From a virus: a stretch of DNA of 20,314 nt. The notes beneath the pieces were generated by a model. It was given only the letters and a program-made list of their open reading frames with translations, made no database searches and was not told where the DNA came from. Position numbers and translations under genes: made by a program. Position 1 is the first letter of the stretch, and each line of letters starts with the position of its first letter. Location of the stretch: positions 1 to 20,314 of IMG/VR virus record IMGVR_UViG_3300042563_000361, one strand, 5' to 3'. Below are positions 5,154 through 17,245 of the stretch, piece by piece.

Positions 5154-5329
5154 ACGATAACTTTCACGACTATCTTTTTCATTACAATGTTTATGAAAAG
5201 CTTTGGTATGTTTTTACAAGGGACGACTCTAATAATTATTTTAGTGATAGAGCCTCTATAAAGACTTTATCCGCACCAGATATTAAAATCTTGATCAAGG
5301 CTATTGCTGAAGGAGTTACTATTGAGTAA
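5150..5329 (+). CDS. Small 59-aa protein coupled to TerL
   Basis: The frame opens with ATG at 5150, overlapping the upstream stop (ATGA), and ends with TAA at 5327-5329, sharing its last base with the TerL start (TAATG). The product is aromatic-rich at the N-terminus (HDYLFHYNVYEKLWYVF) and ends in a helix. Perfect fit between two coupled junctions, with no alternative gene for the gap, is the main evidence that it is translated. Function is unknown; the phase-perfect fit suggests a translational bridge or a packaging accessory factor. Confidence 0.7.
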   Translation: MNDNFHDYLFHYNVYEKLWYVFTRDDSNNYFSDRASIKTLSAPDIKILIKAIAEGVTIE

Positions 5330-7503
5330 TGTTTATTACTGTACCTACATATAGAAATGGTGAGTGGACTGAAACTTCTTTTGATTCAAGAGAAGACTTC
5401 AGAAATTTTTTGCTTACACTTTTTAAAGAACCGGGGCAGTATGAATTTGATGAGAGTTCTAAACTTTTTCAAGAACAATCTGATAAATTTAATTCTTTAG
5501 GTTACTACACGGATGCTCCGTTTAGATCCAAAGACTTTATAAACTATTGGGATCAAGAGAAAAAGAAGTGTCGGAATGGTGTAATATTCGTGGGTAAAAG
5601 AACCACCTGGTATCTTACTAGAGATTATTACATGTGGCTTAACTTCCTACCCATCTATGATAAAGAAGAAAAGAAATACGGTTTTGCAAAAGTTCGTGAT
5701 GCTCAGTATCACATGGCAATGTATGAGATCTTAGCAGAACTTTCATTTAAACATGTTGCTATTTTAAAGAAACGTCAGATTGCATCATCTTACTTTCATA
5801 TGGGTAAACTCATCAACCAATACTGGTTTGAAGAAGGTTCTATCTGTAAGATTGGCGCAAGTCTAAAAGACTACATTAATGACAAGGGTTCATGGAAGTT
5901 TCTTGATGAATATGCAAACTTTGTAAATGAACACACCGCGTGGTATAGACCTAATAACCCAAACAAAATTCTGCTGTGGGAACAAAAGATTGAAGTACGG
6001 ATTGGTGGTCGTATAAGTAAAAAAGGTCTTATGTCTAAGATCCAGGGTCTTTCATTTGATAAAGATGCAACAACCGGTGTTGGTGGACCTGTAACTTATT
6101 TCTTTCATGAAGAAGCTGGTATTGCTCCTAAGATGGATAAGACGTATGAGTATATACGTCCTGCTGTTCAGTCTGGCTTTATTACTACTGGTACTTTTAT
6201 TGCTGCAGGATCTGTGGGTGATCTGGATCAGTGTGAGCCTCTTAAACAAATGATTTTAAACCCCGAAGTAAATGATATCTATGCTGTTGAGACTAATCTC
6301 ATTGATGATCAAGGCACCATTGGGACTGCTGGCCTTTTTATTCCTGAGCAGTGGAGCATGCCTCCTTTTATTGATGAGTTTGGTAACTCACTTGTGCAAT
6401 CTGCTCTTGCTGCCATTAACTTGGAAAGAGAAAGGTGGAAGAAGGACTTAGCACCTGAGCAGTATCAACTACGTATTTCTCAGAAGCCAACTAATATTCA
6501 GGAAGCATTTGCTTTTAGAAAAATATCTGTATTCCCCACTAATCTTGTTACAGCTCAATTAAAAAGAATTGAAGAAAAAGAGTATCCTTTTGAATTTTTA
6601 GAACTAGAATACGGAGAAGACGGAAAAATCGTAGCAAAAGACACAAGAAAATTGCCGATTCGTGAATTTCCTATTTCTAAAAAAACAGAAGATAAAACGG
6701 GGGTTCTTGTAGTTTATGAAAGACCGGTGGCTAATGCAGAGTTTTCTACATACTATGCATCTGTTGACCCCGTGGGTGAGGGCAAAACAACCACCTCAGA
6801 GTCTCTCTGTAGCATTTTTGTGTACAAGAACCCAGTGGAGGTTACCCGTGAGACAGATAACGGCATAGAGAGCTTTATTGAGCAGGATAAAATTGTAGCC
6901 TCTTGGTGTGGTAGATATGATGATCTAACCAAAACTCACCAGATGTTGGAGAAGATCATTGAATGGTATAACGCATGGACTGTTGTGGAGAACAACGTAT
7001 CTCTGTTTCTTCAATACATGATCTCTAGACGTAAGCAGAGATACTTGGTACCTAAGAGTCAGATGCTTTTCTTAAAAGACATTGGTTCTAATGCTAACGT
7101 ATTTCAAGAATATGGTTGGAAGAATACCGGTAACTTGTTTAAGGGTCATTTGCTTTCTTATGCAATTGAGTATCTCAAAGAAGAAATTGATGTAGTGACA
7201 AAAGCAGACGGGGGTATTGTAAAAACTACTTATGGGGTAGAGCGTATTTCAGATCCTATGCTGTTAAAAGAAATGATGGCATATCACCCTGGCCTTAACG
7301 TTGACCGATTAGTAGCGTTTGCTGCATTAATTGCTTTTGCAAAAGTGCAACAATCTAATCGCGGATATGCAAAAAGAAAAGAATCTACCATCAAAGGTTT
7401 GGAAAAGTCAGATAATTTGTATAAATTAAAAATGAGCCCGTTTAGACATATGGGAGCATCATCTATTTCCAAGTCTCGTAATCCATTCAAAAATTATAGA
7501 TAA
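5329..7503 (+). CDS. terL: Terminase large subunit (TerL)
   Basis: This 724-aa packaging motor has an N-terminal ATPase and a C-terminal RNase H-fold nuclease. Residues 121-155 carry a Q-motif-like RDAQ and then the P-loop position KKRQIASSY (147-155). Aligned with the phage form RQLGKT, the GK core is A-S, so the canonical Walker lysine is missing. The Walker B strand is VTYFFHEEAG (255-264) with the catalytic glutamate kept and His where Asp is usual. The coupling motif is about FIAAGSVGD (290-298). The nuclease acids are D480 (ASVDPVGEG), E554 (VVENN) and D659 (VDRLVAF). It would cut concatemers and pump DNA through the portal. Family assignment is firm from layout and nuclease triad. See the finding on the degenerate ATPase signature. 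Confidence 0.93.
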   Translation: MFITVPTYRNGEWTETSFDSREDFRNFLLTLFKEPGQYEFDESSKLFQEQSDKFNSLGYYTDAPFRSKDFINYWDQEKKKCRNGVIFVGKRTTWYLTRDYYMWLNFLPIYDKEEKKYGFAKVRDAQYHMAMYEILAELSFKHVAILKKRQIASSYFHMGKLINQYWFEEGSICKIGASLKDYINDKGSWKFLDEYANFVNEHTAWYRPNNPNKILLWEQKIEVRIGGRISKKGLMSKIQGLSFDKDATTGVGGPVTYFFHEEAGIAPKMDKTYEYIRPAVQSGFITTGTFIAAGSVGDLDQCEPLKQMILNPEVNDIYAVETNLIDDQGTIGTAGLFIPEQWSMPPFIDEFGNSLVQSALAAINLERERWKKDLAPEQYQLRISQKPTNIQEAFAFRKISVFPTNLVTAQLKRIEEKEYPFEFLELEYGEDGKIVAKDTRKLPIREFPISKKTEDKTGVLVVYERPVANAEFSTYYASVDPVGEGKTTTSESLCSIFVYKNPVEVTRETDNGIESFIEQDKIVASWCGRYDDLTKTHQMLEKIIEWYNAWTVVENNVSLFLQYMISRRKQRYLVPKSQMLFLKDIGSNANVFQEYGWKNTGNLFKGHLLSYAIEYLKEEIDVVTKADGGIVKTTYGVERISDPMLLKEMMAYHPGLNVDRLVAFAALIAFAKVQQSNRGYAKRKESTIKGLEKSDNLYKLKMSPFRHMGASSISKSRNPFKNYR

Positions 7504-7622
7504 TGTTTACGACTATTACTTCTACAAGTGATCACACATCTTTTTCGTACGTGTACATAGATGAATTAACAGATATGGAGTACACAACAATTTATGTGCT
7601 TAACACAATTGAAGAATTATGA
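7503..7622 (+). CDS. Small 39-aa protein between TerL and portal
   Basis: ATG at 7503 shares a base with the TerL stop (TAATG), and TGA at 7620-7622 overlaps the portal start (ATGA). The product is rich in Thr, Tyr and Ser, acidic overall, and likely two strands plus a short helix. As with the 59-aa gene before TerL, the exact fit between two coupled junctions is the evidence for translation. No family is recognised. It may simply couple portal translation to TerL, or it may bind one of them. Confidence 0.6.
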   Translation: MFTTITSTSDHTSFSYVYIDELTDMEYTTIYVLNTIEEL

Positions 7623-10360
7623 AGATTTATAATGCACTAGATCTTAAAGCTGGAGCCAAAGCGGAATACAGTAAGACTGGTACTCTGATTCAGCCTGTTC
7701 AGTTTATTCCTAGAAAAGAAAAAGATGAAGAGTGGGCTGCTTGGAATATGGACTGGCATGAGTGGCAGGGCATTAAACAACTTAGAAGAAATTCAAGACG
7801 TATTCTTAAAAACTATAAGCTTGCAAAAGGTATTATTGATAAAACAGATTATATCATTGAGCCTGATAATGAATATGCAGATCTTGTAGATACACTTATC
7901 CAAGAGGATCAGTCTGCTCTTGAGATTAAGTTTTATCCCATTATTCCTAATGTAATTAACGTACTTACAGGTGAGTTTGCTAAACGCTATTCACGTGTAA
8001 CATTCCGTGCAGTAGATGACATCTCTTACAATGAAATGATGGAGATGAAGAGAGCAATGATTGAAGAAACATTGCTTTCACGAGCTGAGCAAAAACTGAT
8101 GGCTAATTTGATTGCACAAGGATTTGATCCTGAATCAGAGGAAGCACAGCAAGTTCTTAATAGAGATAATCTTAAGAGTCTTCCAGAGATTGAAGATTTC
8201 TTTTCTAAAGATTACCGCAATCTTATAGAAGAATGGGCAATGCACCAGCTTAAGGTTGACGAGGAAAGATTTAAAATGCAAGAACTTGAAGAGCGCGGGT
8301 TCCGTGATATGCTTATTGCAGACCGTGAGTTCTGGCACTTCAAGATGAATGAGGATGACTATGAGATTGAACTTTGGAATCCTGCCCTTACATTCTATCA
8401 CAAGTCTCCAGATATCCGTTACATTTCTCAGGGTAACTGGGTAGGTAAGATGGATATGATGACCGTATCTGATATTATTGATAAGTACGGTTATCTGATG
8501 ACTGAAGATCAGCTTATGTCATTGGAGGCTATTTATCCAGTACGTTCTGCAGGATATCCTATTGGAGGAAGTCAGAACGATGGAACTTACTATGACGCTA
8601 CTAAGAGCCCCGAGTTCAATAGTATTGAGAATGGCTCTCTTGGTTATAGACAATTTATGTCTACATATCAAAACAGCTCATACACAGGTGATGTAGTAAA
8701 TGAGATTCTTAATGAATCTGAAGACATGTTTGATAACGAGACAGCATTTATGCTTCGTGCTACTACTGTTTACTGGAAGTCACAACGTAGAGTTGGTCAC
8801 CTAACTAAGATTACTGAGGAAGGTGAAATTCTACAAGATATTGTAGATGAGACTTTTAAGGTTACCGAGAAGCCTATTTACAATTTGTCATTTAACAAAA
8901 ACAAGACTAAAGAGAATCTTGTATTTGGTGAACACATTGAGTGGATTTGGATTAATGAAACTTGGGGTGGTGTAAAGATTGGACCTAATGCTCCTACATT
9001 CTGGGGTCAGAAGAATCTTTCTGGTCTTGATCCTATCTATATTGGTATTAATCAACCTAAAGTTGGAAGACTTAAGTTTCAGTTTAAGGGTGATAATACG
9101 TTGTACGGTTGTAAACTACCGGTTGAAGGTGCTGTATTTTCAGATCGTAACACACGTTCAACATCTTTGGTAGATTTGATGAAGCCTTACCAGATTGGAT
9201 ATAACATTGTAAACAATCAGATTGCTGACATTCTTGTAGATGAACTTGGTACAGTTATCCTACTGGACCAAAATGCATTACCTCGTCACTCTTTGGGAGA
9301 AGACTGGGGTAAGAACAACCTGGCAAAAGCATTTGTGGCAATGAAGAACTTCCAGATGTTACCTCTGGATACTTCTATTACAAACACAGAGAATGCTTTG
9401 AACTTCCAACACTATCAAGTTCTTAGCCTTGAGCAGACAAATCGTTTAATGTCTAGAACTCAACTGGCTAATTACTTTAAGAACCAAGCGTTTGAGTCTA
9501 TTGGTATTAACATGCAACGCATGGGTAGTCCACTAGAACAGCAAACAGCTACCGGAGTACAAGCATCTCTTGAAAGCTCATATGCACAAACAGAGATCTA
9601 CTTTATTCAGCACTCTGATTACTTGATGCCACGTGTACACCAAATGCGTACAGACCTGTCACAGTACTACCACAGTAATAAACCTTCAGTTCGTCTTCAG
9701 TACATTACTACTGCTGATGAGAAGATTAATTTTCAGTTAAACGGTACAGATCTTCTTCTTAGAGATCTTAATGTATTCTGCACTACTAAAGCTAACCATA
9801 GACAAGTTCTTGAGCAGATGAAGCAGCTTGCAATGACTAATAATACTACCGGAGCAACTATCTATGACCTGGGTAATATTATGAAATCAGATAACATTGC
9901 AGAGGTTTCACGTATTCTGAAAGAAGCTGAAGCTAAGCAACTTGGTCAGAAAGAAGCAGAAATGCAGCAAATGCAGCAAATGAAGGAGCAAGAAATTCAA
10001 GCTCGTCAGCAAGAGGCTATGATGAAGATGCAGTTTGAGCAAGAAGAAGCTGATAAAGATCGTCAGAAGGATATTACAGTTGCTGAAATTAGAGCTGCTG
10101 GATATGGTTCTATGCAAGACATTAATAAGAATGAGGTATCAGACTTCCAGGATGCATTAAAAGATATCCGTGAGACTGATCGCTATAGAGAACAAATGAC
10201 TATTAAAAGAGAGTCAGAAATTAATAAGGGTGCCATGCATCAAGACAAGATGGGTATTGAGCGTGAAAGACTGCAAACACAACGTGAAATTGCAGAAAAA
10301 CAGCTTCAGGTTGCTAGAGAGAATAAGAATAAGTACGATGTTCAACAAAAGAAAAAGTAA
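7619..10360 (+). CDS. Portal protein with long Gln/Glu-rich C-terminal coiled coil
   Basis: The 913-aa product has the position after TerL, the size and the texture of crAss-like portal proteins: an N-terminal WNMDWHEWQGIKQLRRN region, FYPIIPNVINVLTGEFAKR (about 115-133), a central wing with REFWHF...WNPALTFYH, and a stem/crown part with LASLE-type helices around 650-690. From about residue 765 to the end the protein is a Gln-, Glu-, Lys- and Met-rich helix, probably a coiled coil or crown barrel extension. It includes a short repeated QQM unit. Portals form a dodecameric ring through which DNA enters and leaves and which nucleates head assembly. The start is fixed by its ATGA overlap. A 118-base gap follows before the scaffold gene. 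Confidence 0.85.
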   Translation: MKIYNALDLKAGAKAEYSKTGTLIQPVQFIPRKEKDEEWAAWNMDWHEWQGIKQLRRNSRRILKNYKLAKGIIDKTDYIIEPDNEYADLVDTLIQEDQSALEIKFYPIIPNVINVLTGEFAKRYSRVTFRAVDDISYNEMMEMKRAMIEETLLSRAEQKLMANLIAQGFDPESEEAQQVLNRDNLKSLPEIEDFFSKDYRNLIEEWAMHQLKVDEERFKMQELEERGFRDMLIADREFWHFKMNEDDYEIELWNPALTFYHKSPDIRYISQGNWVGKMDMMTVSDIIDKYGYLMTEDQLMSLEAIYPVRSAGYPIGGSQNDGTYYDATKSPEFNSIENGSLGYRQFMSTYQNSSYTGDVVNEILNESEDMFDNETAFMLRATTVYWKSQRRVGHLTKITEEGEILQDIVDETFKVTEKPIYNLSFNKNKTKENLVFGEHIEWIWINETWGGVKIGPNAPTFWGQKNLSGLDPIYIGINQPKVGRLKFQFKGDNTLYGCKLPVEGAVFSDRNTRSTSLVDLMKPYQIGYNIVNNQIADILVDELGTVILLDQNALPRHSLGEDWGKNNLAKAFVAMKNFQMLPLDTSITNTENALNFQHYQVLSLEQTNRLMSRTQLANYFKNQAFESIGINMQRMGSPLEQQTATGVQASLESSYAQTEIYFIQHSDYLMPRVHQMRTDLSQYYHSNKPSVRLQYITTADEKINFQLNGTDLLLRDLNVFCTTKANHRQVLEQMKQLAMTNNTTGATIYDLGNIMKSDNIAEVSRILKEAEAKQLGQKEAEMQQMQQMKEQEIQARQQEAMMKMQFEQEEADKDRQKDITVAEIRAAGYGSMQDINKNEVSDFQDALKDIRETDRYREQMTIKRESEINKGAMHQDKMGIERERLQTQREIAEKQLQVARENKNKYDVQQKKK

Positions 10361-11809: not shown

Positions 11810-13447
11810 ATGGCAACACCTGTTTTAAACAACGGTATCTTTTTAAGAGATACTCAGTATCAGGCATCCAGCCATGTAGATTCTTACCACCTGGTAAACA
11901 TGTTGAAGTCGGCTGAGCCGATGGACATGGGTCCAGTTGATTTGTGGGCTATGGCACAAAAGGTAGAGATGCCTTTGTATCAAATGGCTTCTTTCGGCGG
12001 TAAGAATACTATCATGGTTGACAATGCTAAAGGAGAGTACAAGTGGCAGGTTCCTGTTACTCAAGACCTTCCTTACATCATTGAAGACATTGAGACTGGC
12101 AACACCTCTAAGGGTATTGACGGTACTACCTTCAAAATTAAAATTAACAAGCGTACTTTCGGTCACGGTGATATCATTACCTACGATAAGTACAACGGTG
12201 CTGAAATGTACATCACTGCAGAAGATATTCTTCCTGCTGGTGACGGTTTCATTTACACTGTACAGCTTGTAAATAATGACAACGTGAAGTTCTTGGAGAA
12301 CAAGTACCTGGCTTCCGGTACTAAAGTTTTCCGTAAAGGTTCTGCACGTGGTGAGTACGGTGAGCGTTTCTCTGATATCGGAGAATTCGGTGCTGGATTC
12401 CGTGAGTTCTACAACTTCGTAGGAGGTGCAGAAGCTCACGTACACTACAGCATTTCTTCACGTGCTGATATGATGATCAAAGGTGGTCTTAACCAAGATG
12501 GTTCTGTACCTGTAACTGAGATCTGGAGAAACTTTGACAAGAACATTGATCCTTCTATCACTTCTTTGGAGATGATGGCTAGCCGCATGGGTAAAGACTA
12601 CGTAAAGAAAGCTATGGCAAATGGCTCTTTGAACCGTACTTTCTTGACCACTCTTGAAGCTGCTCACCTGTCTAAGATTGCTACTGACATGGAAACTTAC
12701 CTCATGTGGGGTCATGGTGGACGTGTACGTCAAGATGGTCCAGATGATGTTCGTCTGTCTGTAGGTTTGTGGAAGCAGCTTGATAACTCTTTCAAGCGTG
12801 TATACAACAAGTCTTCTTTCTCTCTTGATATGTTCAAGGCTGAATTGTACAACTTCTACCAAGGTCGTGTTGAACTACAAGGTCCAGACCCCAAGCGTCA
12901 GATCATTGTACAAACTGGTCTAGGTGGTATGAAGCTTGTTAACGAGGCTATTAAGAAAGAAGCTTTCGGAACTGGTCTTACCGGTATGGTAGTTAATGGT
13001 GATAAGTCTGGTATCAATGCGATCTCTGGTTCTAGTGCAATGGATCTTAACTTCGGTTTTGCATTCACTAGCTATGTGATTCCATTCTTGGCAAACGTTA
13101 AGTTTGTTTTGAATCCTGCATTTGACAACTTGCATACCAACGACATTGAAAACCCATTGATTGACGGTCACCCCTTGAGCTCTTACAGCTTTGTAGTATT
13201 TGACATCACCGAAACTGGTAATGACAACATCTACTTGTTGAAGCTTTCTTGGGATAACCAATTGAAGTGGTTCTATCAGAATGGTACTATGGACTACATG
13301 GGACGCAGTCAAGGTTTCCAGTCTTCTGGTAACTTTAACGGATACCGTGTATTCATGACTCAAAACATGCCTGCTCTGTGGGTTAAAGACGCTACTAAAG
13401 TGTTGAAAATTGTTATGAGAAACCCAATTACTGGCGGATCATTCTAA
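11810..13447 (+). CDS. Major capsid protein
   Basis: The 545-aa product follows portal and scaffold. Its N-terminus (FLRDTQYQ..SHVDSYHLVNM) and the LWAMAQKVEMPLYQMASFGGKN segment resemble capsid proteins of crAss-like phages as I remember them; the fold should be HK97-type. Codon choice is distinctive: by my count 20 of 24 Tyr codons are TAC, against 12 of 40 in TerL, and Asn and Phe also favour the C-ending codons. That fits very high expression. The gene stands alone between an AT-rich leader and a hairpin-rich 3' region, unlike the coupled genes around it. Three long antisense frames over it are artefacts of this codon bias. Hundreds of copies would build the shell. Confidence 0.85.
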   Translation: MATPVLNNGIFLRDTQYQASSHVDSYHLVNMLKSAEPMDMGPVDLWAMAQKVEMPLYQMASFGGKNTIMVDNAKGEYKWQVPVTQDLPYIIEDIETGNTSKGIDGTTFKIKINKRTFGHGDIITYDKYNGAEMYITAEDILPAGDGFIYTVQLVNNDNVKFLENKYLASGTKVFRKGSARGEYGERFSDIGEFGAGFREFYNFVGGAEAHVHYSISSRADMMIKGGLNQDGSVPVTEIWRNFDKNIDPSITSLEMMASRMGKDYVKKAMANGSLNRTFLTTLEAAHLSKIATDMETYLMWGHGGRVRQDGPDDVRLSVGLWKQLDNSFKRVYNKSSFSLDMFKAELYNFYQGRVELQGPDPKRQIIVQTGLGGMKLVNEAIKKEAFGTGLTGMVVNGDKSGINAISGSSAMDLNFGFAFTSYVIPFLANVKFVLNPAFDNLHTNDIENPLIDGHPLSSYSFVVFDITETGNDNIYLLKLSWDNQLKWFYQNGTMDYMGRSQGFQSSGNFNGYRVFMTQNMPALWVKDATKVLKIVMRNPITGGSF

Positions 13448-13462
13448 TAAGAAATAGGGTAG

Positions 13463-13482
13463 AGGGGGTAGCAATACCCCCT
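13463..13482 (+). terminator. GC-rich hairpin after the capsid gene
   Basis: AGGGGGTA and TACCCCCT form a perfect 8-bp stem closed by a GCAA tetraloop of the stable GNRA class. It starts 16 bases after the capsid stop. Outer GGTA/TACC pairing can lengthen it. No T-run follows, so it may stabilise the 3' end of the capsid mRNA or partly terminate rather than act as a standard intrinsic terminator. Confidence 0.55.
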
Positions 13483-13501
13483 TATACCTTTACCTTGTCG
13501 T

Positions 13502-13635: not shown

Positions 13636-14652
13636 ATGTCATCTGTAACAATCGTTGAAAAGTATCAACAATCTAAGAGCAACAAAGTTGCTGTTAAACC
13701 GTTCTTTGAACCAACCGTAACCAACATGGGTCTTGAGAAATATGGAATGTCTCTCATGGATGGTGTTTATCATGAAGAGCAACTTGCTTGCTTAGAGTTT
13801 AATGGTATTAAGCGTTACTTGACTGGACTCAATGAGTTTGCTCCAGAAGTTAAACTTCTTCCGGATGATCAAAGAGATGCTATTATTCAAGACATTCGCA
13901 AGACTGTAGCACAACTTGAAAGAGAACTTGCTTCTAATATCATTAACCTAGATGATCCTGAGTTCTGGAATAAGGTAAAACTTCTTCGTCCAGATAATGA
14001 TGAGTTCTGGGGTAGGATTACTATCCGTTGTGGTAATGAGCCTTTGTTCTTGGATCCTGTAAGAGATCCGTATGATCTGATTAAACTGAGAGCTATTGAA
14101 GCTGGTGGTTTTTCAATTATAGCTAAAAGCTTGCAACATGCTAAGAGTATGCCTGTTGCACCTAAGTTTTTCCTTGATAAAGTAGAAACCACAGCTTCTA
14201 CTACAACTGAACTTAAGAAGTTGCGTAACAAAGCTCTTGCTGAATTGCAAAAACTTTTTGATAAATCACCACAAAAGCTTTTTCTTGTCGCAAAAGTTGT
14301 TGATATTAATAGTGCCCAGTATAAGAAATCTACTCCTAACGATGTTATTTATGACAACATGGATAGATTTATTAACGGTGAGTCGGTAGAAAAGAACAAG
14401 AAAAAAACTGCTGAACAGTTCTTAGATGCTGCTAGATTAGATATGGAAACTATTAAGATTAAATCAGTAGTAAAGGATGCAACATATTACCGCTTCCTTG
14501 CAACTAAACCTGATGGTTTTATTTACCATATGGATTCTGGTACAGCTCTTGGAAAGACCCCGCTGGCTGTAATTGAATATCTTAAAAACCCACTCAATCA
14601 GGATGTTCTTATTGGACTGATGGAAAGAGTAGAAAAAATGTGGAACGAGTAA
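13636..14652 (+). CDS. Structural-block protein of unknown function (338 aa)
   Basis: The protein follows the capsid gene and opens a coupled run of four genes. It appears soluble and mostly helical, with no signal peptide or membrane segment. A lysine- and glutamate-rich helix lies around 190-210 and a KKKTAEQFLDAARLD helix near 258-272. No catalytic motif is recognised. By position it could be a capsid accessory, internal head or connector protein. The ATG at 13636 is preceded by an A- and C-rich leader without Shine-Dalgarno sequence. The stop overlaps the next start (TAATG). Confidence 0.75.
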   Translation: MSSVTIVEKYQQSKSNKVAVKPFFEPTVTNMGLEKYGMSLMDGVYHEEQLACLEFNGIKRYLTGLNEFAPEVKLLPDDQRDAIIQDIRKTVAQLERELASNIINLDDPEFWNKVKLLRPDNDEFWGRITIRCGNEPLFLDPVRDPYDLIKLRAIEAGGFSIIAKSLQHAKSMPVAPKFFLDKVETTASTTTELKKLRNKALAELQKLFDKSPQKLFLVAKVVDINSAQYKKSTPNDVIYDNMDRFINGESVEKNKKKTAEQFLDAARLDMETIKIKSVVKDATYYRFLATKPDGFIYHMDSGTALGKTPLAVIEYLKNPLNQDVLIGLMERVEKMWNE

Positions 14653-14762
14653 TGGCTGAAGATAAAGATCCATTTGCAGATTGGTTAGGGGAGCTTGAAA
14701 AAGCTTCCCAACCGACCTGTAATATTGACAATCCTGAAGATTGTGAAGCTTGTGGTAGTTAA
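14652..14762 (+). CDS. Tiny acidic Cys-containing protein (36 aa)
   Basis: ATG at 14652 overlaps the upstream stop (TAATG). The peptide begins with an acidic helix (EDKDPFADWLGELEKA) and ends with C23, C31 and C34, a C-x7-C-x2-C pattern that could hold a metal or pair with another protein. It lies in a gap otherwise left empty, and the next tiny gene has the opposite charge. Coding status rests on the coupled start, the neighbours' habit of coupling, and amphipathic composition. Function is unknown. Confidence 0.5.
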   Translation: MAEDKDPFADWLGELEKASQPTCNIDNPEDCEACGS

Positions 14763-14777
14763 TGAAGTGTTTAATCC

Positions 14778-14912
14778 ATGAATAAGAAGAAATTATCACC
14801 AGAAAAAGGTCCAAGAAAAATGAAGCTTTATGATGAAAGCTTGAATAAAAAGAAGTACGGTGGTGGATCAAATAACAAGTCTGTTAAAAAAGGCTTTAAA
14901 AGAATGAAGTAA
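14778..14912 (+). CDS. Tiny basic protein (44 aa)
   Basis: The frame runs from ATG at 14778 to TAA at 14910-14912, which shares a base with the next start (TAATG). It has 14 lysines and two arginines against three acidic residues, plus a flexible GGGSNN segment at 28-33. Such a peptide could bind DNA or RNA, or neutralise the acidic 36-aa protein encoded just before it. The start is 15 bases after the upstream stop. No family is recognised. Confidence 0.55.
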   Translation: MNKKKLSPEKGPRKMKLYDESLNKKKYGGGSNNKSVKKGFKRMK

Positions 14913-15613
14913 TGACTAATGCAGCTCTACAGCTTAAGATTAAGCAACGTCTTAACAAGCTAGCCAGCAATGACTATGATAACATAGAGTGTTGGCAGAT
15001 AGTAGAGGCTTTTAATAAAGCTCAAGTTGAATGGGTACGTCGTCAATTGCACGGCAATAACTTATTTAAAGAGGGTGATGAAGGCTCTAAAAGACGTGTA
15101 GATGATCTGCAGATTCTTCTTATTCAGAGTAAATTGTATGGTAATAATAGAAAGAAGTACTTTGAATCAAGAGAACTTCCTTCTAATTACCTGCAGTATA
15201 AGCGTGTAGATGCTTATGCTAAATCTGAATGCTGTCCTGAAAGAGGGATTACAGTATACTTGGCAGAGGAGGCAAATGCTGAACAATTTCTTAGAGATAT
15301 GTATCGTCAACCAAGTTTTGAATGGGGTGAGACTTTTTGCACGTTGATTGGTAATAGAATAAGAGTGTATACTGATAACAAGTTTGATTTATCAGATTGC
15401 AGTTTTACTTATTATAGACAACCAAAAAGAATTGAAATTCTAAACTGTGTTGACCCTTATACTGGAGTTGCTTCTGCTCAAAATATTATCTGTGAATTTA
15501 AAGATGATATTGTAGAACTTCTTATTGATGAAACAGCAAGCATACTTGCTGGTGATATTGAATCTACTAATCAGTTTCAAAGAGGAACACAATCAGCTGA
15601 ACGCAGCAACTAA
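14912..15613 (+). CDS. Head-tail connector-like protein
   Basis: This 233-aa protein has an N-terminal helical half (LKIKQRLNKLASNDYDNIECWQ, then a Trp-Val-Arg-Arg helix) and a strand-rich middle. The C-terminal helix is IICEFKDDIVELLIDETASILAGDIES (about 194-220), followed by a QRGTQSAERSN tail. The C-terminal helix pattern DDIVE.LIDE.AS.LAGDIE..NQ..R is one I associate with connector or ring proteins of crAss-like phages; that is memory, not a search. The size and the place after capsid genes fit a head-completion or adaptor protein that joins portal to tail. Both ends are coupled by TAATG overlaps. Confidence 0.6.
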   Translation: MTNAALQLKIKQRLNKLASNDYDNIECWQIVEAFNKAQVEWVRRQLHGNNLFKEGDEGSKRRVDDLQILLIQSKLYGNNRKKYFESRELPSNYLQYKRVDAYAKSECCPERGITVYLAEEANAEQFLRDMYRQPSFEWGETFCTLIGNRIRVYTDNKFDLSDCSFTYYRQPKRIEILNCVDPYTGVASAQNIICEFKDDIVELLIDETASILAGDIESTNQFQRGTQSAERSN

Positions 15614-16017
15614 TGGCACTACAAAGACTCAAAACGTCTGAAGATAAGGCATTTGCAACCTTGGTTGGCAATTTGTTTGCATCTACTACAGTAGCTCATA
15701 TGCTGCATTTAAAGGTAACCGGTGAAGGTTCTTACTCTCAGCATAAAGCTCTTGGTGAGTATTATGAATCTCTTCCCGGATTTCTTGATTCAATTGTTGA
15801 AGGATATCAAGGTCATCATCTTAAGCTTCTTGAACCTATAATTGTGACTCCTCCGAGCTTAAAGACTGTAAAAGAATTTGTTGATCATCTAAATTCTTTG
15901 TATATTATTATTGACGAAGCACAGCAGGCAACTATGTGTAGTTCTTTAAAGAACGTTCTAGATGAAGCTAAAAGCTTAGTCAACACTACAAAATACAAGC
16001 TCTATTTTTTGAGCTAG
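15613..16017 (+). CDS. Dps-like ferritin-fold protein (DUF5856-like)
   Basis: This 134-aa, all-helical protein matches the small phage family I know as DUF5856, which has the four-helix ferritin/Dps fold. The segment from FASTTVAHMLHLKV to FLDSIVEGYQG corresponds to Dps helices A-B. H32, H44, D59 and E63 keep the spacing of the Dps ferroxidase ligands (12, 15 and 4 residues, as for H31, H43, D58 and E62 of Listeria Dps). E49 lies one place off the remaining Asp. Helices C and D follow, but the chain is shorter than a usual Dps. It could bind iron, protect DNA from oxidation, or be a structural reuse of the fold. It lies inside the connector block, coupled to the previous gene by TAATG. Confidence 0.65.
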   Translation: MALQRLKTSEDKAFATLVGNLFASTTVAHMLHLKVTGEGSYSQHKALGEYYESLPGFLDSIVEGYQGHHLKLLEPIIVTPPSLKTVKEFVDHLNSLYIIIDEAQQATMCSSLKNVLDEAKSLVNTTKYKLYFLS

Positions 16018-16051: not shown

Positions 16052-17182
16052 ATGGCATATTTTCCCCATGCGTATAAAAAAGTGTTCGTAGCCGCTTCAG
16101 TTGAAACAGCTGCAGGACAAAAGTCACATCAGTTGTCAGCCGGTGAGCTGGGACTGTTGGACAAAACATTTACCTCAGTTGCTGCTGGTGGTGCCGTTGC
16201 AGGTGGTCTTTACTACTTGGCACAAGGTAGCTATCACACAACTGACAAACTTGGACCTTTTCACGGAGGTTACAAAGAGTCTGTTAAATCTAAGGGTATC
16301 AACCCTAAGTTTATCAGCAAAGTATGGACTGTAGCCGCTGCTGCTCCTACTAATGCTATCTTGACTGTAGAAGCTCAAGGTGATTGCTTTAAGTGTGGTG
16401 TTGAGCGTTACCTTCGTCTTGACATTAAGGGTTCGCCTGCACTCCGTTTCTTGGGTCGTAACGCTTACTTTGTAGGTGACTTTACCAGCTACTGCTGTGT
16501 TACTGGTCAAACTACTGTAGATCCTTACACTGTATTGTCTACTTGGGCTACGCAAATTGCTGGTGATGCTTTGGTATCTCCCTTTGTACAAGCTGTTGTA
16601 GAGAAGTGGAATCCTGCTGCTAATGAAGGAGCAGGTGCTTGGGTATCTTCTGCAGGTCACACTGTAACTACTTCTAGCCACGGTAAATTTCGCATTGTTC
16701 TTACTGGTGCATATGTAGATACTAAGTTTGGTGATTGCTCATTTTCTCCAACCGATTTCTACGAAAGAGAGCCTGTTCAGCTTCTTGCTTCTGAGATTGA
16801 TGAAACTGGTAACGCTTGTAACGTAGCTTGTACTGTTATTACTGAAGTACAACGTGGTGAGCAAGGTAACGGATTTGGTGAAACTGTTCTTCGTGAGTTC
16901 ATTCTGTCTAACAGATATGCTCAAGAAGATTTTCAGACTGATCCAAGAATGCGTGAGATTTTGAATGATATTGCTTTGACTGGTGTTTCTCGTAATGCTA
17001 GCTACAAAGCCTTTAACATTCTTCACAGCATTCCTCGTTCTTACAATCCATCAGGTATGCACAATAGTGATCAGTACTTGTTGACTGTATACGCTGTTGA
17101 CGGTTCTGCCGCATCAACTGCCGTAGGTGCAATCTGCACTGATCTTGCTGACGCTGCTGGTGTTACTGTTGAGGCTTACTAA
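16052..17182 (+). CDS. Abundant structural protein, probably major tail or sheath/tube-like
   Basis: This 376-aa protein starts MAYFPHAYKKVFVAAS, in the style of phage tail-sheath or tube N-termini. The N-terminal 70 residues are Ala- and Gly-rich, the middle is strand-rich, and a helical C-terminal part has LREFILSNRYAQEDF (about 283-297) and a HSIPRSYNPSGMHNSDQYLLTV segment. Cysteines occur in pairs (DCFKC, YCC). It has its own leader (shared with the capsid gene), a strong terminator right after it, and C-ending codons in many Tyr and Asn positions. All of this points to a protein made in many copies. A major tail, sheath/tube or capsid decoration protein are the options; I cannot separate them by eye. 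Confidence 0.55.
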   Translation: MAYFPHAYKKVFVAASVETAAGQKSHQLSAGELGLLDKTFTSVAAGGAVAGGLYYLAQGSYHTTDKLGPFHGGYKESVKSKGINPKFISKVWTVAAAAPTNAILTVEAQGDCFKCGVERYLRLDIKGSPALRFLGRNAYFVGDFTSYCCVTGQTTVDPYTVLSTWATQIAGDALVSPFVQAVVEKWNPAANEGAGAWVSSAGHTVTTSSHGKFRIVLTGAYVDTKFGDCSFSPTDFYEREPVQLLASEIDETGNACNVACTVITEVQRGEQGNGFGETVLREFILSNRYAQEDFQTDPRMREILNDIALTGVSRNASYKAFNILHSIPRSYNPSGMHNSDQYLLTVYAVDGSAASTAVGAICTDLADAAGVTVEAY

Positions 17183-17203
17183 GAGTTTTTAGTAAAGAAA
17201 TTT

Positions 17204-17245
17204 GGGGGAGTGAGAGTTTTATGACTCTCCTCCCCTTTTTTCTTT
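17204..17245 (+). terminator. Strong intrinsic terminator
   Basis: GGGGAG (17205-17210), a bulged T, and GAGAGT (17212-17217) pair with ACTCTC and CTCCCC (17224-17235). The stem is 12 bp with a six-base loop, followed by TTTTTTCTTT. It lies 22 bases after the stop of the preceding gene and is the clearest terminator in the window. Confidence 0.9.

Follow-up and report, generated by a model that had tools for sequence, protein, structure and literature searches.

The locus considered here raises the question of what a Dps-like protein does among the structural genes of a phage. The window, that is, the whole stretch of DNA analysed, comprises 20,314 nucleotides (IMGVR_UViG_3300042563_000361, positions 1 to 20,314). 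It carries the features by which Crassvirales are recognised, namely capsid, portal and terminase large subunit (TerL) genes in conserved order together with ring and auxiliary proteins, and it is a crassvirus. The features referred to in the following are:

5329..7503, plus strand: terminase large subunit (phrog_6681, E 2.9e-64)
7619..10360, plus strand: portal protein (phrog_6547, E 3.4e-91)
11810..13447, plus strand: crassvirus major capsid protein (PF23898, Crass_capsid, E 1.7e-28)
13456..13490, plus strand: strong hairpin 3' of the capsid gene, upstream border of the unit (fold z -5.5)
13636..14652, plus strand: 338-aa protein encoded by the gene that opens the unit, at the position held by gp33 in crAss001
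14912..15613, plus strand: tail-barrel ring/adaptor protein of crassviruses, 233 aa (phrog_29507; comparison with phi17:2 and csAssE-Sib)
15613..16017 (coding 15613-16014), plus strand: Dps-like protein, 134 aa (Pfam DUF5856 / PHROG 858; H29, H32, H44, D59, E63)
15697..15708, plus strand: codons 29-32 (H29 M30 L31 H32) in helix A, with putative ligand H32 and second-shell H29
15742..15756, plus strand: codons 44-48 (H44 K A L G48), with putative ligand H44 and the fifth-ligand slot G48
15787..15801, plus strand: codons 59-63 (D59...E63), with putative ligands equivalent to HP-NAP D52 and E56
16052..17182, plus strand: capsid auxiliary protein, 376 aa (crAss001 gp36 fold, 7qof_a, E 1.4e-12; order in relatives)
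17203..17242, plus strand: hairpin and T-run 3' of the auxiliary-protein gene, downstream border of the unit (fold z -7.0)

The two hairpins bracket a late unit that consists of the gp33-like, ring, Dps-like and auxiliary genes. The downstream hairpin is a probable terminator. The upstream hairpin may be a terminator or a processing site; because it has no clear T-run, a terminator is something we infer for this position. Simple sigma-70 promoter matches occur at shuffle level. The Dps-like reading frame is intact (ATG start, 134 residues) and its start shares one base with the stop codon of the ring gene (TAATG). The ring/adaptor protein is related to proteins of phi17:2 and csAssE-Sib, as judged by protein comparison, and has no relevant match among PDB sequences. 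The 376-aa auxiliary protein is recognisable by its fold only, since a sequence search of 50,697 phage records returned no match. With a crassvirus ring protein directly upstream and a crassvirus capsid auxiliary protein downstream, the original prediction of a co-translated gene within the structural block is borne out. We note that the interval between the gp33-like and ring genes (14653-14913) contains two tiny reading frames of about 36 and 44 aa, the latter also present in three related contigs (L001-L003).

The Dps-like protein belongs to a widespread phage family. It matches Pfam DUF5856 (PF19174) with 58.4 bits (E 1.6e-15), above the gathering cut-off of 34.6 bits, as well as PHROG 858 (E 1.5e-23), which is labelled 'starvation-inducible transcriptional regulator'. 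DUF5856, PHROG 858 and VOG0375 are one family that includes T4 rI.-1 (MobD.6); in Pfam, DUF5856 is a family of unknown function. All 35 sequences of our homologue alignment (A2) match DUF5856. Depending on the query, between 841 and 1333 phage records contain a homologue, and at least 567 IMG/VR stretches do so too. The idea of a close homologue in bacterial genomes was discarded: a motif scan of GTDB contigs, covering motif-bearing sequences only, returned 18 stretches, none of which is related (0/18). Compared with a close relative, dN/dS is approximately 0.13 (dN 0.016, dS 0.121), and the protein is therefore under purifying selection.

The AlphaFold2 monomer is a four-helix structure (pLDDT 93.3, pTM 0.86) with helices at residues 9-32, 40-69, 86-106 and 110-132. 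Its B-C loop (residues 70-85) contains no helix, a position at which canonical Dps proteins have a short perpendicular helix (PMC13168243). A Foldseek search against PDB ranks Dps at the top, with no match at E 0.001 or better. The VIA comparison lists Dps and ferritin-like proteins, including MsDps2 with Z 15.7 and an rmsd of 2.4 over 127 residues; helical bundles frequently score 13-14, and a high Z alone is not counted as proof. Because helical bundles score high in general, the sequence evidence bears most of the weight. A search of PDB with the single sequence gives weak matches only, the best of which are Dps proteins (E 0.03-0.3), and a profile built from 35 phage homologues matches H. 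pylori NAP (HP-NAP) with E 1.7e-6. Model, structural matches and profile agree with the Dps-like fold proposed originally, and the window protein is predicted to adopt a Dps-like four-helix fold.

Does the protein retain the ferroxidase site? The residues H32, H44, D59 and E63, which the original prediction had placed on the ligand positions of Dps, align in the profile search with H25, H37, D52 and E56 of HP-NAP, and in the single-sequence search with the ligands of L. innocua Dps and S. suis Dpr. H32 corresponds to L. innocua Dps H31, and H29 to HP-NAP H22. The iron site of HP-NAP is built from H25, H37, D52 and E56, two per subunit from two subunits; in the apo protein His22 is salt-bridged to Asp52, and Glu41 and Tyr44 are close by (PMC4192664). 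The phage equivalents of this site are H32, H44, D59, E63, H29, G48 and Y51. Conservation was evaluated in a motif-independent set (A4) of 16 phage homologues with 23-38% identity to the window protein, drawn from T4, RB49, Aeromonas, Proteus, Klebsiella, Shigella, Erwinia, Caulobacter, Methylophilaceae, Ackermannviridae and environmental phages. Only seven alignment columns never vary: H29, H32, H44, D59, E63, Y128 and L130. Conservation of the four ligands in relatives had been named beforehand as one of two points on which the proposed site stands or falls, and all four are unchanged across the 16 phages. The hypergeometric probability of finding four pre-named ligands among 7 invariant of 134 residues is P = 2.7e-6, a guide only, since neither columns nor sequences are independent. 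H29, H32, H44, D59 and E63 are also invariant in the 35-sequence alignment A2; the A2 invariance of the stretch H44-Y51 is set aside because most A2 sequences were found by a pattern spanning it.

The fifth ligand is a different matter. E49, regarded originally as a near miss, is replaced by Lys in a relative with 96% identity (L003) and in 20 of the 35 homologues, and was rejected as a displaced ligand; the true slot is residue 48. T4 and an Erwinia jumbo phage have Asp at this position, RB49 and phages of Proteus, Aeromonas and Klebsiella have Glu, and the window protein, the crassvirus clade and the Ackermannviridae have Gly. The acidic residue of the fifth slot (Dps D47, HP-NAP E41) is thus absent from the window protein (Gly48), and the conserved Trp of Dps is replaced by Leu33. 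The intra-subunit di-iron set of ferritin, bacterioferritin and DpsL (Glu plus ExxH, helices A-D) is not formed by the invariant columns. The window protein has a computed pI of 6.3 and no basic tail, features that lend no support to a putative DNA-binding role.

We read the gene as encoding a phage-specific minimal Dps-like ferritin from a late head/tail unit of an environmental crassvirus, which would oxidise iron, be associated with the virion or loaded at assembly, and protect DNA. We assign this reading a probability of roughly 0.5. The protein is very likely a metal-binding and probably iron-oxidising minimal Dps; virion association in this crassvirus clade has about an even chance. Two subunits would pair and build a metal site at their interface, to which one chain would contribute H32 and H44 and the other D59 and E63. 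This site would bind Fe(II) and oxidise it with peroxide or oxygen, and the reactants of the Fenton reaction would be removed. The protein would become part of the virion, bind to it or be loaded at assembly, and would protect DNA while it is packaged, in the extracellular phase or shortly after entry. We infer the virion role on two grounds, the detection of homologues by proteomics in a different phage family and the repeated association of the gene with those for portal, ring or terminase. A bolder version remains tentative, and we consider it rather unlikely: an active mini-ferritin in or on the crassvirus particle near neck or capsid, T4 rI.-1 as the same enzyme with a fifth ligand, and a virus-specific ferritin branch that guards DNA during packaging and entry and was used repeatedly by unrelated phages.

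Within crassviruses, the order capsid, gp33-like, ring, Dps-like, auxiliary and a 181-aa protein is constant in related contigs as far as each of them extends. In crAss001, gp36 comes directly after the rings gp34 and gp35, whereas in the window the Dps-like gene intervenes. The structural region of crAss001 contains no Dps-like gene, and the solved crassvirus virion is therefore uninformative on the location of the protein. None of the whole genomes of Leptolyngbya phage Lbo-JY46, csAssE-Sib and phi17:2 (0/3) has a Dps-like match, hence not every crass-like phage carries the gene. Capsid proteins of the clade are approximately 80% identical to that of the window, whereas the Dps-like proteins outside the closest three contigs are only 44-50% identical, which implies fast divergence everywhere but at the site. 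Both the ring and the capsid proteins of the clade evolve more slowly than the Dps-like protein. Some crassvirus relatives (L038-L041) carry an extra N-terminal tail of 30-50 residues that is rich in Lys, Pro and Glu.

The wider family was surveyed in 26 homologue clusters at 80% identity, several of which represent one phage lineage. The directly upstream gene is of head or connector type (head, portal, adaptor, terminase) in 11 of the 26 clusters, made up of crassvirus ring (5), portal (3), head-tail adaptor (2) and TerL (1). Where the gene directly follows a portal, head-tail adaptor or terminase gene, 4-base overlaps are common, and the portal or TerL linkage recurs in phage DSL-LC05 and MW202711. 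An exclusive head linkage of the family was dismissed, as the upstream gene is a recombination or nuclease gene in 8 of the 26 clusters and other or unknown in the remaining 7; the T4 homologue adjoins rI. Linkage to head genes is thus recurrent, not exclusive. In one lineage (L049:4690-4992) the Dps-like gene is found near a phage GroES co-chaperonin gene, and in DSL-LC05 (L109) GroES directly precedes portal and Dps. The rI.-1 gene of RB43 (L029, NC_007023, around 81566-81947) is annotated with 77 aa and the match goes on in a second piece, likely reflecting a frameshift or sequencing error.

Evidence from virions comes from two homologues of the same family. ORF78 of Dickeya phage LIMEstone1 was reported in 2012 as a 'confirmed structural protein' by virion mass spectrometry, with 3 unique peptides, 28% coverage and a listed mass of 13.15 kDa (PMC3296691); the mass that we compute, 13.15 kDa, equals the published value. 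The predicted ferritin gp217 of Salmonella phage Sajous1 yielded 10 spectra from CsCl-purified virions in 2024, in a study whose authors caution on contaminants in virion preparations (PMC10892097). In the literature searched, the published virion reports draw no link to T4 rI.-1 or to crassviruses. The novelty originally expected of such a protein in association with virions was therefore overstated, since homologues had already been found by mass spectrometry in Ackermannviridae virions; neither phage Dps nor a virion-associated member of DUF5856 is new. Three features do appear new: a crassvirus carries the gene between those for the ring and auxiliary proteins, the site is unchanged throughout the family, T4 rI.-1 included, and both the fifth ligand and the B-C helix have been lost.

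The main rival assumes the same chemistry inside the infected cell: the protein would scavenge iron and peroxide and guard the cell or the replicating DNA until lysis, late co-transcription would be all that ties it to the structural genes, and traces in virions would be carry-over. Dps proteins in general act in the cytoplasm, in line with such a role, and the T4 copy resides in the rI operon while others lie beside NinB, NinG, RusA or HNH genes. The modest spectral counts in virions and the contaminant warning for Sajous1 (PMC10892097) point the same way, and an intracellular role has been proposed for other phage DPS by Benler et al. 2021 (PMC8008677). Independent virion detection in two Ackermannviridae genera and the direct coupling, seen repeatedly, to genes for portal, ring or terminase argue against mere carry-over, and we regard the intracellular role as a serious contender that falls short of an even chance. 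If the protein were instead a ferritin fold recruited as a structural part of the head-tail region, with its ligands being remnants or a purely structural metal site, its position between ring and auxiliary genes and the lost fifth ligand would be accounted for. However, very distant phages share only 7 invariant positions and the ligands are among them, the protein diverges faster than the ring and capsid proteins of its clade, unlike a conserved connector, and the crAss001 tail is built without a Dps-like protein. We consider this improbable; the alternative named originally, fold reuse with residual residues, is likewise disfavoured because the ligands are part of a very small set of residues without any variation.

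The remaining two explanations derive from individual homologues. T4 rI.-1, for which a function as a lysis-timing accessory has been proposed, belongs to the same family, and its over-expression slightly lengthens lysis inhibition (Golec 2010, reviewed in PMC6832632). We rate this function as very improbable here: the T4 effect is slight, most of the examined homologues are distant from lysis genes, and conservation of the metal site is left unexplained. For Sajous1 gp217 a Ferrojan-horse role was proposed, in which virion-borne iron is offered to a host iron-uptake receptor for adsorption, yet Sajous1 infects tonB and feoB mutants similarly (PMC10892097). The window protein gives no sign of surface exposure, and we find this explanation barely credible.

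The preferred reading, a late minimal ferritin that is virion-associated or loaded at assembly, can be set against known systems. All members of DUF5856/PHROG 858/VOG0375 compared, including T4 rI.-1, share invariant H29, H32, H44, D59 and E63. In most T4-like members residue 48 is Asp or Glu and the gene lies beside rI, whereas the window protein has Gly48 and is encoded between ring and auxiliary genes. LIMEstone1 ORF78 and Sajous1 gp217 are approximately 32% identical to the window protein and have the same site including Gly48, but belong to a different order of phages and are encoded in a separate cluster of small virion proteins near the DNA primase gene, away from ring and capsid genes. 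Bacterial Dps proteins (HP-NAP, L. innocua Dps, S. suis Dpr) have the four-helix fold in common with the window protein, which has residues at positions matching the four inter-subunit ligands and the second-shell His and Tyr. The window protein is smaller (134 aa, with a minimum of 117 in relatives), its model is without a B-C helix, and it has neither an Asp/Glu in the fifth slot nor the Trp (Leu instead) nor a basic DNA-binding tail. In T4 rI.-1 itself (L110:320-706; NC_000866 58819-59205) all five Dps ferroxidase positions are present (H, H, D, D, E).

Among crassviruses, gp063 of the human gut phage cr108_1 (Steigviridae; L119:27839-28222) also lies in the structural block and has H32, H44, D48, D59 and E63. 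It is annotated as a DNA-binding protein (VOG0375), is 22% identical to the window protein, falls slightly below the DUF5856 cut-off, and occupies another position in the block, adjoining an exonuclease gene. The mini-bacterioferritin Mper-mBfr is likewise a bare four-helix bundle of approximately 136 aa without B-C helix, as in the window model, but has its di-iron site within one subunit (four Glu, two His) and binds haem, whereas the window protein has ligands of Dps type (PMC13168243). The DPS proteins of Gratiaviridae and other gut phages are phage-encoded and of Dps type as well; they are described as metabolic oxidative-stress enzymes (PMC8008677).

For DUF5856, the comparison provides a concrete and testable chemistry. 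One invariant metal site joins three annotations that had no connection with each other, namely a lysis accessory in T4, a structural protein or ferritin in Ackermannviridae, and a DNA-binding protein in crassviruses. If the protein is present in virions, iron redox chemistry would be a property of phage particles, with a bearing on phages of aerobic and anaerobic hosts and on the debate about phages and iron. In BFVD, phage proteins of 333-763 aa labelled as prohead protease (A0A6J7WIS1, A0A6J7WPK9, A0A6J7XDU5) contain a stretch that matches the Dps model, which suggests protease-ferritin fusions in some phage heads.
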